A stretch of DNA of 64,000 nt from contig LUVW01000016.1 in assembly GCA_001661515.1 (NCBI GenBank), forward strand, positions 439,496 through 503,495. The letters run 5' to 3'. Positions 39,501 through 63,455 of the stretch are shown here, in pieces. The notes under the pieces were generated by a model. That model made no database searches. It had not been told where the DNA came from and saw only the letters and a program-made list of their open reading frames with translations. Position 1 is the stretch's first letter. Each line of letters starts with the position of its first letter. The translations under genes were made by a program, and so were the position numbers. The stretch comes from Capniomyces stellatus (lineage: Eukaryota; Kickxellomycota; Harpellomycetes; Harpellales; Legeriomycetaceae).

Positions 39501-39610
39501 TAACTAAACTTGAAAAGAAAACAACAACAAAAAAAACAAAAAAAACAAAAGCAAAGCTTTGAAGCAGAACAAAAAAAGAAATTTTAATAAGAAGTAAAAA
39601 AAAAAAAAAA
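36518..39610. other. Long divergent region between FOX2 and INO1
   Basis: About 3.1 kb with no recognisable gene. Several short ORFs (for example 37111-37432) lack domains. TATA-like and 5' UTR splice-like elements close to INO1 are listed separately. I searched by eye for the yeast inositol-responsive element CATGTGAAAT and did not find it. Confidence 0.6.
38999..39006 (+). promoter_or_regulatory. TATA-like box upstream of INO1
   Basis: TATAAATA about 600 bp upstream of the INO1 start. An exon-like CCCCACAG|GTACGAAATC donor lies at 39183, so a 5' UTR intron may close part of this distance. The acceptor is not certain (a TAG at 39421-39423 is one option). Confidence 0.35.
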
Positions 39611-41191
39611 ATGTCACCAGCTCAAGCCAGAACATCAAACACCGTCAACTCGGTTTCAATCAAGGTTAACTCACCTAATGTGCGTTACTCTGACACCGCA
39701 ATTGAGTCAGACTACTTTTATGACAAAACAATTGTTAGCCATGATGAAAATGGGGTTCTTTCAGCAAAGCCAACAAAAGTGCACTACCAATTCCGTACCA
39801 AGACCGATGTTGGTCGAGTAGGTTTGATGCTTGTTGGGTGGGGAGGTAATAACGGAACTACGATCACCGCATCAGTGCTTGCAAACAAGCACAATGTGAC
39901 ATGGAACACACGTAAGGGGGTGCAGGAGCCAAATTACTATGGATCGGTGATGCTTGCGTCGACAGTGAAGCTTGGAGTGTCAGAGGATAGCAAAGATGTG
40001 TTTGTTCCTTTCCACAACCTGATCCCAATGGTAAACCCCAACGACATTGTCTTTGGAGGATGGGACATCAGCGGCATGAACTTGGGAGACGCAATGACAC
40101 GTGCACAAGTGTTCCCATATGACTTGCAGCGCCAGATGTACGATGTGATGCAGGAGTACAAGCCATTGCCATCGATCTACTACCCAGACTTTATTGCAGC
40201 CAATCAGTCGGAGCGTGCAGACAACGTGTTGGGAGGAACAAAGCAAGACCATCTCGAGAAGATCAGAAAGGACATCCGGGACTTCAAGGCAGCCAACAGT
40301 CTGGACAAAGTGATTGTTTTGTGGACAGCCAACACCGAGAGATTTGCAGACATCATTGAGGGAGTCAACGACACAGCCGACAATCTGCTGCAGTCGATCC
40401 AGAATGGCCACTCGGAGGTTTCTCCTTCAACTGTCTTTGCAGTTGCCTCGATCTTGGAAGGCTCAGCGTTTATCAATGGATCGCCACAAAACACTCTTGT
40501 TCCAGGAGTAATTGAACTGTCTGCCCGCCACAACTGCTTCATTGGAGGTGATGACTTCAAGACTGGCCAGACCAAAATCAAGTCCGTTTTGACTGAATTC
40601 CTCGTCAATGCCGGAATCAAGCCTGTCGCAATCACCAGCTACAACCACTTGGGCAACAACGACGGCCACAACCTTTCAGCCCCAGCCCAGTTCCGCTCCA
40701 AGGAGATCAGCAAGAGCAGCGTTGTTGACGACATGGTCAACGCCAACCACCTGCTCTACAAGAAGGGCGAGCACCCTGACCACACCATCGTCATCAAGTA
40801 CGTTCCTTCTGTTGGCGACTCCAAACGCGCTCTTGACGAGTATGTAAGTGAGATTTTCATGGGTGGTCTCAGCACCATTTCCATCTACAACACCTGCGAG
40901 GATTCCCTTCTTGCTGCCCCCCTCATCCTCGATCTTTTCTTGGTCGCTGAGCTGATGACCCGTGTTGAGTACCGCGCCTGCTCCGACTCTGCCCCAACCG
41001 GCGAATGGGAGTCCTTCCACTCTGTTCTTTCCATCTTGTCCTACATGCTCAAGGCCCCTGTTGTTCCTCCAAACACCCCTGTAATCAACGCCCTTGCCAA
41101 GCAGAGATCCGCCATGGAGAACATCATGCGTGCCTTCATTGGATTGCCTCCAAACAACGATATGCTTCTTGAACATGTTACCAACTTCTAA
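39611..41191 (+). CDS. INO1: Inositol-3-phosphate synthase Ino1
   Basis: Converts glucose 6-phosphate to myo-inositol 3-phosphate using bound NAD+, the committed step of inositol synthesis. Single exon, 526 aa, the usual length. The Rossmann motif is [10 protein letters not shown] (about residues 76-85). Family blocks [11 protein letters not shown], the [12 protein letters not shown] segment, [35 protein letters not shown] and [15 protein letters not shown] are all present. Codon use is noticeably richer in G/C-ending codons, mainly in the second half of the gene, than in many neighbours; this is common for highly expressed fungal genes. The start follows a long A-run leader (39595-39610). 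Confidence 0.97.
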
Positions 41192-44537: not shown

Positions 44538-47533
44538 ATGAACAAAGACAAGCTAATTCAGAATTTCAACATTGGTTTGCTGGGGCATGTGGACAGCGGG
44601 AAAACTTCACTAGGTATAGCGTTATGTTGGTTATGAGTTGATATTTGGTGCTAATTAAAAGTGTCCCGAATGCATGTCCTTTATTTTTCTATCCCAGAGG
44701 ACAATTTAGTGGCCAGTTGACACTTTTTTAATTCCGCTTAAAATAATCAATCGGATAGCCAAGGCACTGAGCACACAGGCCTCTACAGCCGCCTTTGACA
44801 AAAACCCACAAAGCCAAAATCGCGGAATAACTTTGGATTTAGGATTCTCTACATTTACCTTATCCACTTTTCAAAACAACGAAGGTAACTAGTAAATTTC
44901 TCTTTTAAATTCATATTAATTTTTAGCTACAAGCTAAAAAGTTTCCTAGAAAAGACAAAAGTAGAATAAAGTCAAGTAGGAAAGAAAAAGTAGAAGAAAA
45001 CAAAACAAACCACCTGTATACTTACATCAGTAACCTAAATACGAATAAAATAGTTCAAATAACCCTTGTCGATTGTCCGGGCCATGCTTCACTAGTTAGA
45101 ACAATAATAGGAGGTATGTTGTTGCAGCCATTATAGCCATTACGGTTGTTATTGTGCTATGAGTTGGCTATGGGGCTGTATGGTATCATTGCAACGAGTA
45201 TGCTATTCTAAATTAAAACGTATTATTTAGGTGCCCAAATTATGGACGCAGTTGTTCTAGTTGTCGACGTTAATAAAGGGATCCAAACCCAGACAGCCGA
45301 GGTAATAATGGTGCCTGGGCAGCTTTGCATACTTTAAAACCCAATTTATTGTCTGCTCTTTATAACCCGAATAAATAGCTATATTTATTATGACAATGAC
45401 CGGACTCAGCCTAACCAAGTCTTTTCTTTATTTTCTTGTTTCGATCTGTTGTTGGCGCGATTATGTAGTGCTTAGTACTTGCAGAAATAACAAACAAGCC
45501 TTTGATTATAGCTCTCAATAAAATCGATTCAATGCCAGTAGAGAACAGGGCCAAAAAAGTAGACAAGGTCACCAAGAATTTACGCAAAGCTCTGTTGGAC
45601 ACACCGTTCGCATCAAGTACAATAGTAGCTGTGAGCGCAAATATAGATAGTACAAATGCAAGCGGTGCAGATTTAGAGTTGGATGGTATGTGTGTTGGGG
45701 TTAGTCCGTTGGTAGCTGCTATACGACGATTTGTTGAAAGTTCCTACAAGTCTGATGGCATCCACGATCTAAAAAGACTAGCAATTAGTGAAGATAAGGA
45801 GAGTTGTCTAATGGCTTTCGAGCATTGTTTTCTACTTCGTGGGCAAGGATCAATTCTGACTGGAACTATAATAAGCGGGAGTCTATCGATTGGCGATGTA
45901 AGAGCTTTAGCAATACATTGAACCCCACACTAAACCCGATACCATTCAAGTTATCATATTATGTTGGCGATAGAATATCTTGGATCAGATTGTGACAAAG
46001 GATATTTGCAGTTCGGCACTCTGTATTTACTTAAAAGCGAATATATGTGTTTTTGAATTATGTTATTAGACGCTGGATATATTGCCAATGGGAATACAGC
46101 GCAAGGTAAAGTCAATACAGCGATTCAGAGAGCCTGTGACGTCGATATTTGCAGGAGATAGAGCAGGGGTGTGCGTGACAAAGGTCGACTCTGAAGATAT
46201 TGAGCGAGGATTTTTAGCAACTCCTGGATCAGTCAGAGGCGCAACGGCATGTATACTTCCGCTGAGTAGAGTGCGGTACTACAAAGGATCATTGAAATCA
46301 CACACACTTTTCCATGTGAGCATAGGATATGAGACTGTGACAGCAAAGTTAGTCTTGTTTAGGACAAGAAGATATGTAGACTTGGATGCAAACGCAGAAG
46401 TACTAGACTTTACTAACAAAGAGTTCGAGGCCGTTGGCGAACTTGGCAGTGATTCGGATACTGGCGCTTTCCAAGTATTTGCGTATCTTGACTGGGGGCG
46501 CCAGATATACATTCCAAAGTCTACGTTGATTATTGGATCGAAGTTAAACTCTGAGCAAAGTAAGTATCGTTTCATCTTTTCTTTTCACCAATACACTCTC
46601 ATTTAAGCCTAACTGTTTTTGCAGTAGTTGTTTGGACAGCATATCGGTTGTGGATCAGATGGTTTTTTTTGATTTTCTGATTTTTTTTGATTGGAATTTA
46701 TGAAGGGATATTGCTTAGATGAGTGTTTGCTGGCTTTTCTAGCTGAAAACGGACATAGTTATATTATAGCCAAGCAAAACTATTTCTGATTGATGTTTTA
46801 AAACCTGCAATCTAAATAAACTGCATGTACAAATGCCTTCAACTTGGTTGCACTAGGTTTGAACGTATGTAGACTTGCATTCTATGGAAAGCCGTGCCAA
46901 ACAGTGTCGGAAAAGGGCAGCAGCGACTGGTTTTTATTCAACGTATCCTTGTATAAACTAAAAGAGAGGGCAGGCGATGTTTTCAGAGTAAGGGCGGTTG
47001 GTTGTTGACGGGATCTGGTGATTGGGTGGTTGTGTTGGTGTCTACCATTACCTTGTCAGCAGATAATATAGCATTTAATGTGATTGTAGGTTGTGGACGA
47101 GAACATGCTGGTTGCTAAGGGGATGCTCAACGTATCAAACATATCGTATTTTAATGGGTTTAAAGTAGACTTGGTTGATGGTAAAAAAAAAAAAACTTAT
47201 TCGTACCGTTTACTATATGTTTGATGGGAGTTGTATTAACTGTACTTGGCCTATATCTAACCCTGTAATCTTGGCTCCTGAATGCTTGCAGAAAGCGGTG
47301 ATGTGCTTGCTACTGGGAAGGTTGATGGGTTGTTTGGTAAGAGCGATAAGTTTAGAGTTAGGTTTTCTTCGAGTGTTAAGCTTTCAGACTACTTTAACAT
47401 ATCCAAGTCATCAAAAAAACCCGTTCAGCAGACAAAGATCAATGGCAAGGAAGTAAGTGGCGAAATCACCCTCAGGATAAAGTACCGCAAGTTTATTTCT
47501 GGGCAGACAAAGCTGGATCAACATTTTCAATAG
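44538..47533 (+). CDS. EEFSEC: Selenocysteine-specific elongation factor eEFSec (SelB family), 9 exons
   Basis: The GTPase that delivers Sec-tRNA to UGA codons of selenoprotein mRNAs. Exons are 44538-44613, 44759-44884, 45054-45113, 45231-45301, 45469-45897, 46070-46559, 46857-46987, 47090-47180 and 47292-47533; 571 aa, close to the animal protein. All GTPase motifs are intact: G1 GHVDSGKTS (residues 16-24), G2 RGITLDLGFSTF (47-58), G3 DCPGHASL (74-81) and G4 NKID (128-131). RGITLDLGF is diagnostic for eEFSec; EF-Tu and eEF1A differ there. Domain 2 has the block LLRGQGSILTGTIISGSLSIGD, followed by KVKSIQRF and AGDRAGVCVT. Domain 3 includes FHVSIGYETVTAKLVLF and VCRLAFYGK. The eEFSec-specific domain 4 is complete, from NVSNISYFNGFKVDLVD to the basic LRIKYRKFISGQTK near the stop. 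No frameshift or premature stop is needed. Confidence 0.95.
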
Positions 47534-58091: not shown

Positions 58092-58878
58092 TCTTTTTTA
58101 TTTGTTTATAACTGTATTGTTGAAAAACACGATTATTGAAACTTGTGAATAGTTGACTAGTAAGTTATTCGAGAGATATTATTGCGATATTATTGTACTA
58201 ATTCGTTTATTAATTGGTTTTTATTTTTGGTAAAGAGTATTTTTAGTAGTTTTTGAAAAGCTCAATTCAAAATAAAAAAAACTTGATTTTATTATTTTGA
58301 TTTTACTCTTTAAAATAGAGTAATTATTCAATTAGTAAACATTACGTTTTATTTTGGCCAAAAAAAATAAAAAATCAACGATACAACACAACAAAACACA
58401 ATTCATCAGCCCAGTTAGCTGATTGAATACAAAATTAATTTACAAAACAAAGAATTTAGGTCGCAAAGAGGACGACCGTTTTTATCAATAAATATGTTGC
58501 TAACACGACACTATTGCAATGTTATTAGAGTTAAACATAATTCAGTTATCTAGCAAACCTTTTCATAAAAAAAACTACAAAAATGATTAGATAATCGCCT
58601 ACGTCCATTTATAATAAAGCAGCCATAGTTTAAAGAATCTACTAGATAATTATAAACACAAACAACAAAATTACAAAATTCAAAGTTTTCGTTTAAAAAT
58701 CAGACTTTGTGATTTATTTAATGCTACAAATATCAAGTACAATTAAGCAAAATAAATGTGATTTTCTTAAACAGACAATATAAAATGACATCTAGCAATA
58801 ATTTTTCCAGCAGGTTGTACTCTTAAAACAAAGAATTAAAAGTGTCAAAAATCCGACAAACAACCAGTAAAAAGTGAG
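58092..58878. other. Spacer between the SR-protein gene and the tRNA
   Basis: 787 bp of AT-rich sequence with no ORF or repeat of note. It should include the SR-protein promoter. Confidence 0.6.
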
Positions 58879-58960
58879 CGTCACCTGCAGGATTCGAACC
58901 TGCGCTCCCAAAGGGAAATGGCTTAGCAGGCCACCGCGTTAACCACTCCGCCAAAGTGAC
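58879..58960 (-). tRNA. tRNA-Ser(GCT)
   Basis: 82 nt on the minus strand with the class II shape of serine tRNAs. The 7-bp acceptor pairs GTCACTT with AGGTGAC (one T-G pair). The anticodon stem GTGGC/GCCAT encloses the loop CTGCTAA, giving anticodon GCT. A variable arm CCC-TTT-GGG is present, and the T arm is GCAGG-TTCGAAT-CCTGC. There is no intron. Discriminator base is G. An LTR element starts 7 bp upstream of its 5' end. Confidence 0.97.
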
Positions 58961-59389: not shown

Positions 59390-60790
59390 CTATGCTTCGT
59401 CGTCCTCGGCAAGCATTAATACTTTTTTGAACCTACTGAGAGTGGGTCTCAATCCACCGCTACTTACTACCGGAATCATTTGTGTCGCTTCGTGATACAT
59501 TTTAAGTCGATCCCCGTGTACGAGGTCTCTGTTTCCTCTATCGTCCGCTATTATGTATGTACCCTTCTCGAGTATCCGTGTGATTGTGAACGGTCCTTCC
59601 CAGACCGGTTCGAACTTTGTTTGTAACTGTTCTACATACTTAAGTACTCTATCATTTATTTTAAATGTGAATTGTTTAACTACGTGATTATACCTTTTCT
59701 TATCGTAATTCTTTGCTTTTACTAAATTCTTATAGCCTAAGCTTCGTAATTCTGGTATTGCCTTCTCAATTTGTTCGATGCGGTTCGTGATGGCTTCTTC
59801 TAACTCCTCTACTTCGCCTGAGGGCGTCCACGTTGTCGGTGTATTTAACTGGGTGCCGTAAAGTAACTCTGCTGGTGAGTACTTGGTCGACTTATTCCTC
59901 ATGCTTCTGATCACTAACATGGCTTTCCACATAGAACCATCCCAGTTATCTTGGTCCAACCTAATCATTTTCATTAAAACGTTTTTGAGGGTTTGATTAA
60001 ACCTCTCTACTTGCCCATTGCTCTGAGGGCGGTAGGCTGTCGTCGGCGTGTGTTTAATCTGTAAGAACTCGTAGAGTTTGGTGGCTACTTCGCCTACAAA
60101 GTTAGAACCGCGATCCGAGATTAGCTGTTCCGGCACTCCGTATTCTTGGACTATTTTGTTTATGATGAAGTTCACTACCGTCTCGGCTTTAATGTTGTCT
60201 ACTGGAAGAGCAATCGGCCACTTCGTCAAGTAGTCTATGGCTGTTAAGATATATCGGTTTCCGCTGCTGCTAACCGGACTTATAGGACCTATTGCGTCGA
60301 TTCCCATGATCTGGAAAGGTCTTTGTGCCATAATTGGTATTAATTCGGTTCGCCGATTTTTTTGTCCTTTGTGCCTCTGACATTCGTCACACTCTTCTAC
60401 AATTTTTTTAACTGTATCGTATAACCCCGGTCCTACATATAACCTACTTATCCGTTCCCACGTATTATTTATTCCTTCGTGTGTCTCCTCATGTATTTTA
60501 CTTATCGTTTGTTTTGCCGATCTCTCATTTAATACTTTACGAACTCCATGTTTCTTCGAATTCATGTAGAGTTTCTCGTCAATTAACCTGTATTTCTTTG
60601 CCGTATTCCTTAGTTTATGTCGAAATTTTTCGTCGGCGTCCAGTGGGTAACTAAAGTCTTGTAAATAATTAACTAAGGATTTGTATTTTAGAAAATCCAT
60701 TGAATATACATCAATAAATTTTTCTTTTATATCATTCAGTTTATTATTTGTTTTGCTATTTAATTCATCATTTAAATTATTTCTTGACAA
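59390..60790 (-). pseudogene. Integrase segment of the retrotransposon pol (5' truncated)
   Basis: An open frame of 466 codons without its own legitimate start. It has an HHCC zinc-binding region (the HEETHEG His pair and ECDECQRHK), the integrase catalytic core with Asp in MGIDAIGP, Asp in ISDRGSNF and Glu in NGQVERFNQTL, and a C-terminal GPY/F-like module (WEGPFTI). The stop is 12 bp from the LTR. Upstream it should connect with RNase H, but that domain is missing. Confidence 0.88.
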
Positions 60791-61115
60791 AAAATCTGAA
60801 GGATTGTACTTCCTTTACATTGCTTGGTGCTTTTAAACCTTTTATAGCTTTTATTTTTGACTCTGTCGTAGCTATTCCTTTGTTTGAAATTAAGTGTCCT
60901 AGATACTCCAGCTCTGTCTTTCCTATTTCGCATTTTTCTTTATTTAATTGTATTTTACTATCATTTAATAATTTGAATACCTTGTTTAAATCCTCTGCGT
61001 GTTCTTCCGTCGTACGCGAGTATATTATGATGTCGTCTATAAAGACTACTGCGCATTTCCATAGTACCGGAGCCAGAACCCGCTCCATAAGTCGCTGGAA
61101 GGTAGCTGGGCTGTT
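60777..61115 (-). pseudogene. Second half of the reverse transcriptase palm, then deletion
   Basis: Continues the RT frame just after the TGA at 61116-61118: NSPATFQRLM, then the catalytic FIDDIIIYS, and LEYLGHLIS. It ends abruptly after KEVQSF, where the family continues into the connection and RNase H domains. Sequence joins directly to the integrase-side frame, so roughly the RNase H region is deleted. Confidence 0.85.
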
Positions 61116-63338
61116 TCATAACCCAAACGGCATCACATTGTAACAGAATGTGCCGCTTCCTGGCAGAGAAAAGGCGGTTTTAAGTTTATCTTGGGAAGTT
61201 AATTTGACTTGCCAGAAACCGCTTAACGCGTCTAGGCTGCTGTAGATGCTTGAACCAGCTAATGCTAGAAATATATCCTCTGTGTTCGGCAGTGGGTACA
61301 CGTCTTTCTTGGTCACCAGGTTTAATTTCCTGTAATCACTGCAAATCCTTAGTTTCCCATTTTTTTTCCAAACGGTTACTACCGGGGCAGACCATTCCGA
61401 CCAGCATGGTTCGATAATCCCCCTTTTTTTCATAATTTCTATTTCTTTGTTTACTAGTTCTCGCATACCGTGGGCGATTCGATATGGCTTTAGCTTCACT
61501 GGCTTCGCTTCTCCTGTGTCGATGCTGTGTTCGATTACATCTGTCTGGGTGAGCTGCATGATGTCTTCCACGAACAGTTTTTTGTTCTTCTGTAATACCT
61601 CTCTGATCCTTTGCGTTGCTTCCGGTTCTAATTGGTCCAACTCCTTTTCTTTTCTTTTTGTTTCCAATATACCTATTCCATATATTTCGTACTCGCTTTC
61701 TTCCTCTGATTCACTAGAAGTTGTATTGGTTACCTTGGTACTGAAAGATAGTATCACGTCATACTCTCCTTTTGGGAGGATTAATTCTTCGTTCTTTATA
61801 TCCATTACTGCATGATGAGCCTTCAACCAGTCTACTCCTAGAATTATTGTATCCTTATTCTGTTCCATCACTAACAAGTCTGCTACGAACGTGTAACCTG
61901 CTATTTTGATTGGTAATTTTGAAACAATACCTAAGGTCCTGTGTTTAGCTCCATCCGCGGTTACGATTAATTGTTTACTGTTCTTATCAGCATCTACTCC
62001 CAATTTATCCATCATGGTGCGGTTTATAACACTACAAGCTGCACCTGTATCTAATACAGCCCAATAGTGTTTACCATATATTTCCACTAGTGCTCTACTG
62101 TTACTAGTGTCGTCGTGGTCGATTAGTTTCAGTTCTTTTCCTATCTCCTCTTTTTTGCACAATTTGTTCAAGTCTGCTCTTATTTCCGGCGATACTTGTA
62201 AAAGCTGGGCTAACGATATATTGGCTTTCGTATTGATGAGGTCGTCTTTTAGTGAGTATTGGTTCTCATTACGAACTAGCTCGATTTCTTTATGCCTTTT
62301 CTTAACTACCCTAGCCTTGACTACTTTTTGACTTTTCTTTGGTGGTTCTCCACCTGCTGAGTCTACCTCTTTGCTTGCTTCTCCTACCACTTCGTTCCAG
62401 GTCCGTTTTTCGGTGGCGTAAATGTTTTTTCCCACTTCTTCATACTCCACTTCTATTGATCCTATGGGCTTTTGTTCTTCCATGCTGTTGATGTTGGGTT
62501 TCTTGTTCCAAAACGTTTTTGGGCAGTCTTTTGACCAATGTCCAGCCTCTTTACATTGGTGACAGAATTGTTTTTGGTTATAAAACCCGCGTTCCGCTTG
62601 ATTGTTTCTGTTTCTTGACACCTGAATACTTTCATCCAACTTAGTTAGGATGCTGACGCTTAGTTCTCTGAATTGCTGTATCAATGCCTCGTACATCGGA
62701 TCTCCGTTTTCCTGGTTTTTGACATTCGTGATCTTGGTCCTGTCGGTTACACTTGGTTTTGGTGTTATGGAATCGTTACCTTGGACTGCTACTAGCTTGT
62801 TTAGTTCCTCTTCCTTAATGGCTACGGCGATAACCTGGTCGTAGGTTTTTACTGTCGATTTCAGTATCTCCTTTTGGTACTGGGGTAACAGTGCTGATAC
62901 CAAGTACTTCCTCTTAATGTCGGCGTCCACGATTTTCGCTTTACGGAATAGCTTATTCGTACGTGCCACGAACTCGTCTAAGTCTTCCTTCGGGTCTTGT
63001 TTCAGCGTTTGGAGCTCCTTCCAAATTCTCAGCTCTGCTTCTTGGCCTTCGAAACGTTCCATGAACAATACCTTCAGATCCGGCCATTTTGTTAAGTCCG
63101 AAATTTTCATTTCGTACCAACTTAGGGCTTTTCCCTCCAAATAGAGCTCCATTAATTCCACTTTTTCCTCGTCGCTCCATCCACTTTTCCTTGCATAGAG
63201 GTCGTACCTCTTTAACCATCTTTCTGGATCCATTTTTGATTCGTTTTCGAAAACGGTTGGTTCCAACATGTTCCTGATGCTGCTCCTGCTAGCTTCACCC
63301 TCCTTTGCTACGGCTTCTGAGTGCTTGATTTTTGTCAT
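61116..63338 (-). pseudogene. gag-protease-RT(N) open frame of the retrotransposon
   Basis: 740 codons. The N-terminal part is a Ty3-type capsid (DPERWLKRYDLYARKSGW onward, with WYEMKISDLTKW). A nucleocapsid zinc knuckle follows (CHQCKEAGHWSKDC, CX2CX4HX4C). The aspartic protease has the active site AVLDTGAACS. The RT begins with EPCWSEWSAPVVTVWKKNGK and reaches MPFGL, where a TGA (61116-61118) stops the frame in the middle of the RT block that normally continues to the PATFQ motif. Confidence 0.9.
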
Positions 63339-63455
63339 CTTTCTTGTTTGTTTGTGCTCACTTGTGTTGGTTTAAGTTTTTATTTGATTTTATTTTTATT
63401 TGATTTTATTTTATTTTTATTTATTTATTTTATTTTTATTTTTTATTTTTTTATT

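Follow-up and report, generated by a model that had tools for sequence, protein, structure and literature searches.

A selenocysteine elongation factor gene in a Harpellales-type fungus that very probably makes selenoproteins

Introduction

Does a fungus whose genome carries an apparently complete gene for eEFSec, the elongation factor of selenocysteine (Sec), use this amino acid, and if so, what tells its ribosomes which UGA codons are to be read as Sec? These questions are raised by a locus found in the window – the whole stretch of 64,000 nucleotides analysed here, C8:439496-503495 – which belongs to an assembly of 24,510,316 bases in 59 contigs. The Sec trait is not foreign to fungi: Mariotti et al., in 2019 (Nat Microbiol), reportedly described it in Harpellales and in other early-branching lineages. 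We consider in turn the gene itself, its fungal origin, its companion genes, the genes it may serve and the signal that might mark their UGA codons.

The elongation factor gene

At positions 44538-47533 of the plus strand, nine exons separated by GT-AG introns make a single open frame of 571 codons followed by a TAG stop, in agreement with the original prediction of nine in-phase exons and 571 residues. The predicted exons are as follows.

44538..44613, plus strand: exon 1, start codon and P-loop GHVDSGKT
44759..44884, plus strand: exon 2, switch I block RGITLDLGFS
45054..45113, plus strand: exon 3, switch II DCPGHAS
45231..45301, plus strand: exon 4, GTPase domain
45469..45897, plus strand: exon 5, NKID motif, last part of the GTPase domain and first part of domain 2
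46070..46559, plus strand: exon 6, remainder of domain 2 and most of euk_SelB_III
46857..46987, plus strand: exon 7, end of euk_SelB_III and start of eEFSec_4th
47090..47180, plus strand: exon 8, domain 4
47292..47533, plus strand: exon 9, remainder of domain 4, C-terminal tail and TAG stop

The splice sites are those of a model in which donors were set by hand and every AG acceptor within chosen intervals was tested. Another open model, of 585 aa, uses an acceptor at 44717; we prefer the 571-aa version because the longer one splits the conserved TSLAKALST.

The domains that had been announced for this protein are all recovered, the four Pfam families scoring above their cut-offs: GTP_EFTU (111.8 bits), GTP_EFTU_D2 (41.1), euk_SelB_III (PF21208, 75.9) and eEFSec_4th (PF21131, 58.7), the last two against cut-offs of 27. 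The switch I block RGITLDLGFS is invariant in all six aligned eEFSec, as are the G-H-x-D-S-G-K-T and DCPGHAS blocks. Among solved structures the best matches are 5izk (E 2e-105) and 7zjw (3.8e-105), which we take to contain human eEFSec and which have the same GTPase domain and the same domains 2, 3 and 4; identity to a vertebrate eEFSec is about 40%. A GTPase fold in common would be expected also if the protein were some other relative of EF-Tu, and this is all that speaks for such an assignment: euk_SelB_III and eEFSec_4th are both above cut-off, while SelB (4ac9) comes at 2.1e-52 and EF-Tu at 4.4e-29 or weaker, far behind the eEFSec structures, so that we give it practically no credit. The gene of the window is confirmed, as far as sequence can do this, as that of eEFSec, a protein predicted to bind Sec-tRNA and to act with SBP2 and SECIS elements.

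Fungal origin of the locus

Harpellales dwell in the gut of insects, and eEFSec exists in animals: a contig, or a gene, coming from an animal host or from another eukaryote would therefore be a trivial explanation of the finding. The window offers a placement marker of its own.

39563..41191, plus strand: inositol-3-phosphate synthase frame, stop to stop

Its product is 84% identical to that of Smittium mucronatum, 83% to that of S. culicis and 80% to that of S. megazygosporum, and 85% identical to a partial protein of Zancudomyces culisetae; Coemansia, Mycoemilia and their allies come next at 75-79%, and none of the 120 matches listed reaches 86%. From the identities to Smittium and Zancudomyces the genome is therefore assigned, on this marker, to Harpellales or their close vicinity; as no listed match comes nearer, it may represent a further species.

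The eEFSec protein tells a similar story. A homologue search gave 3440 matches among 7989 scored candidates; among the best 120, which were listed, Smittium angustum, with 54% identity over 90% of the length, and S. simulii, with 46% over 99%, come closest. A tree of 22 rows was built from the window protein and 21 sequences picked from these 120. In it the window protein and the two Smittium group together at 100/100; Synchytrium microbalum falls outside this group, and the remaining 18 rows hold together at 93/96. Ten of the 19 inner branches of this tree are drawn open, and the letter make-up of S. simulii is unusual. The remaining machinery genes, furthermore, are found elsewhere in the assembly, on contigs other than that of the window. 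With the marker nearest to Smittium and Zancudomyces, then to Coemansia and its allies, and with eEFSec joining two Smittium, contamination – which the original prediction had held unlikely and which a check for a non-fungal contig did not reveal – seems to us extremely improbable. The gene was most likely inherited vertically.

Further along the window we noted a tRNA-Ser with anticodon GCT (58878-58960, minus strand) and, near its end, frames whose translations read as those of a Ty3/gypsy-like retroelement (59390-63371, minus strand). Judged by the sequence at their ends, two of the 11 window frames checked terminate with TGA, one of them being a retroelement frame; termination thus appears to be another use of UGA in this genome.

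Companion genes of selenocysteine synthesis and delivery

Up to an E of 10, the search for tRNA-Sec gave 20 matches (53 of the 1230 first-look candidates were scored), a single one of which, C38:80019-80104 on the minus strand, reaches the cut-off, with 64.1 bits against a gathering score of 47. ARAGORN calls it tRNA-SeC with anticodon TCA, and the base that follows its acceptor stem is G. The other 19 are below cut-off, and the one examined among them is a tRNA-Ser. SepSecS gives, one exon after another, five matches over the cut-off on C28, one of them counted with its neighbours, together with a sixth, on C16, below it; the stretch QSTDKNYMVPV is legible in the exons.

The kinase PSTK is less well defined. 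A 440-aa frame on C20 is a weak candidate: its best NCBIfam match is TIGR03575 (E 3.3e-10), whose equivalog cut-off of 382.35 bits lies far above the 39.7 obtained, its best Pfam match is KTI12, and among solved structures it matched no PSTK. Two other matches were set aside after reading their translations, a strong KTI12 match on C53, which looks like KTI12 itself, and one at C38:31989, which looks like an adenylylsulphate kinase.

An SBP2-type frame of 786 codons lies at C32:33327-35684 (plus strand), where residues 8-147 match SECIS Binding Protein 2 (7zjw_B) with E 2.4e-22. Together with an upstream frame, which is probably part of the same gene, it yields 1116 aa in one of the six splice combinations that stay open. 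Past the RNA-binding domain some 600 residues follow without a stop, with weak matches to ankyrin repeats (Ank_2, 27.4 bits against 27.3); AlphaFold2, run without alignment, gave the frame a mean pLDDT of 33.4. A homologue search in which 7995 candidates were scored returned one protein, of 631 aa, with only PF01248 among its listed domains. An SBP2 with ankyrin repeats is not known to us, nor did we find one reported in the openly licensed full texts searched.

This search of the assembly for the other Sec genes, the absence of all of which would have undone the original prediction, leaves it standing: tRNA-Sec with anticodon TCA, SepSecS, an SBP2-type domain and, as we now describe, SPS2 are present, while PSTK is weakly supported.

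Two genes with an in-frame UGA

The gene of selenophosphate synthetase, SPS2, is modelled on C5 with five exons and GT-AG introns.

C5:397215-397137, minus strand: SPS2 exon 1 of the model
C5:396956-396805, minus strand: SPS2 exon 2
C5:396676-396526, minus strand: SPS2 exon 3
C5:396330-396004, minus strand: SPS2 exon 4
C5:395933-395575, minus strand: SPS2 exon 5

Its frame is single and open save for a UGA at C5:397149, which stands opposite the T of LKGTGCKV in selenide, water dikinase 1, that is, at the active site. With U written as C the protein matches selenide, water dikinase 1 with E 3.5e-91; its four exon matches to TIGR00476 are all below the whole-protein cut-off. At the 5' end (C5:397264-397216, minus strand) an in-frame TAG lies shortly upstream, with no ATG between, and the start may belong to an exon further upstream or be separated from the frame by a very short intron. 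An intron of 25 nt was considered there and is kept only as an option, since the other introns modelled in eEFSec and SPS2 measure 70-297 nt.

The second gene, SelenoH, on C7, has two exons and a CVSU (CxxU) site, with GIKMGPPRKLKFP downstream. In the genome search it scored 30 bits against a cut-off of 34.2, with a match that spans one TGA as well as a single TAG falling within the inferred intron; the spliced protein, with U as C, reaches 44.2 bits against the same 34.2 (SelT/SelW/SelH). An earlier SelenoH model, whose exons were wrongly joined, scored 14.6 bits with Pfam Rdx (cut-off 22.6), and the match of this family elsewhere in the genome is also below cut-off. No in-frame stop interrupts the matches to GPx (none of two), AhpC-TSA (none of four, two of which are below cut-off and one of these overlaps a GPx match) or MsrA (none of two, adjacent on C27). 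The count of two predicted selenoproteins is a lower bound, for the families covered: SPS2, SelenoH/Rdx, GPx, AhpC-type and MsrA.

That UGA is decoded as Sec in some genes, as had been proposed from the elongation factor, is supported by its presence at the expected Sec position of both SPS2 and SelenoH. One might object that eEFSec is a relic, Sec decoding having been lost with only remnants left behind: the PSTK candidate is weak, and the strict scan described below finds no SECIS-like element for SelenoH. Yet the eEFSec, SPS2 and SBP2-type frames are open and the SepSecS exons readable, tRNA-Sec, with anticodon TCA, exceeds its cut-off, and in two genes a UGA persists where Sec is expected, flanked by conserved sequence on either side. 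Such a loss is in our view very unlikely. As eEFSec is accompanied by a matching tRNA, by the enzymes and by two genes in which UGA occupies the selenium site, the fungus very probably makes selenoproteins, and we hold with high confidence that this eEFSec is that of a Sec-using fungus of Harpellales type; what we infer is that the genes are spliced and expressed and that Sec is actually inserted.

The pathway, with steps taken from what the protein families are expected to do, would run as follows. The tRNA-Sec (TCA) would be loaded with serine, the seryl group phosphorylated by PSTK and then converted on the tRNA by SepSecS, with selenophosphate supplied by SPS2. eEFSec with GTP would bring Sec-tRNA to the UGA of the SPS2 and SelenoH messengers, and this delivery would be guided by the SBP2-type protein through an RNA signal to which it binds.

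The recoding signal

The eukaryotic SECIS consensus has a UGA/GA core, a helix of about 11 bp and AA in the apical loop; the majority of fungal selenoproteins in the 2019 work of Mariotti et al. are said to lack it. Rfam SECIS_1, used without a eukaryotic positive control, found no match up to E 10 in the whole genome, where 132 of the 362 first-look candidates were scored, and none in the SPS2 and SelenoH loci.

A strict scan for SECIS-like elements, built for the purpose, asked for TGA and a GA core, three pairs closing it, seven pairs or more, and unpaired AA after these. It finds one element in the SPS2 3'UTR (C5:395411-395339, minus strand), with 11 pairs before AAAA and a score of -20.7; the criteria were settled only once a first look had turned up the SPS2 candidate, which makes these figures partly post hoc. 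In the element C faces C where the consensus has K. SelenoH gave no match in 601 nt, and none of the 212 window tiles of 600 nt reaches -20. Over 437,850 background bases – the window and the fetched loci minus the SPS2 locus, both strands – seven matches reach -20, the best -26.7, all with another TGA and none of the ATGA type. When the SPS2 3'UTR is shuffled 2000 times, -20.7 is attained by 0.2% of the shuffles if ATGA is required and by 0.9% if any TGA is allowed. Under a relaxed scan the SPS2 score is ordinary among the 212 window tiles (25th percentile -21.2), and the stretch itself, over its own 109 bases, is no stabler than its shuffles (z -0.6). We keep it as a candidate for a near-canonical SECIS.

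Another feature occurs in both 3'UTRs: some 95-100 nt past the stop lies a hairpin, 48-50 nt long, made up of a lower helix, a 5' bulge and a UGG:UCA pairing. Its descriptor, built from these two genes after looking, has two other matches in 128,000 background bases. The hairpin cores are matched in stability by only 0.3% (SelenoH) and 0.2% (SPS2) of 1000 shuffles each, and the fold z of the same 80 bases of SelenoH is -4.2 with 60 shuffles and -3.4 with 1000. Sliding-window fold z is ordinary, 40% (SelenoH) and 57% (SPS2) of 60 sampled background tiles being at least as extreme. Described after looking, present twice in the background and known from two genes, the hairpin is for this reason only a hypothesis as a recoding signal. 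It would be tempting to combine these elements into a modified mode of Sec insertion, in which SPS2 would use its near-canonical SECIS, SelenoH the UGG:UCA hairpin, and the reader would be an SBP2-type protein that had gained an ankyrin-like C-terminal half; we consider this scenario unlikely, if worth keeping in mind.

Relation to known Sec-using fungi

The surprise expressed in the original prediction was overstated. Sec use is reported for nine fungal species, seven of them Harpellales, and a further report gives Zancudomyces culisetae the Sec machinery, SecS included, and SelenoH, with RNA-seq support, SelenoH being common to Harpellales (PMC12611240). The Sec trait is already known in Harpellales, and is not new. 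The genome studied here is of the same order by its inositol-3-phosphate synthase, and shares with these fungi the Sec machinery and SelenoH. Z. culisetae HAW-14-8, with 27.2 Mb in 26 contigs where we have 24.5 Mb in 59, has both as well; the marker is 85% identical to a partial protein of Z. culisetae. Compared with Sec-using early-branching fungi, the SECIS-like element of SPS2 and the ankyrin-like extension of SBP2 are known here from this genome alone.

The small group of fungi in which use of the 21st amino acid is known thereby gains a long-contig genome. Standard gene models for SPS2 and SelenoH are likely to be cut at UGA. The value of the finding lies in the recoding-signal question: with SPS2, SelenoH, the SBP2-type protein and tRNA-Sec in one assembly, two defined 3'UTRs are at hand in which to ask how UGA would be marked without a consensus SECIS. 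Finally, the chytrid Synchytrium microbalum, to our knowledge not among the nine Sec-using fungi reported in 2019, possesses a 608-aa eEFSec-like protein, labelled hypothetical.
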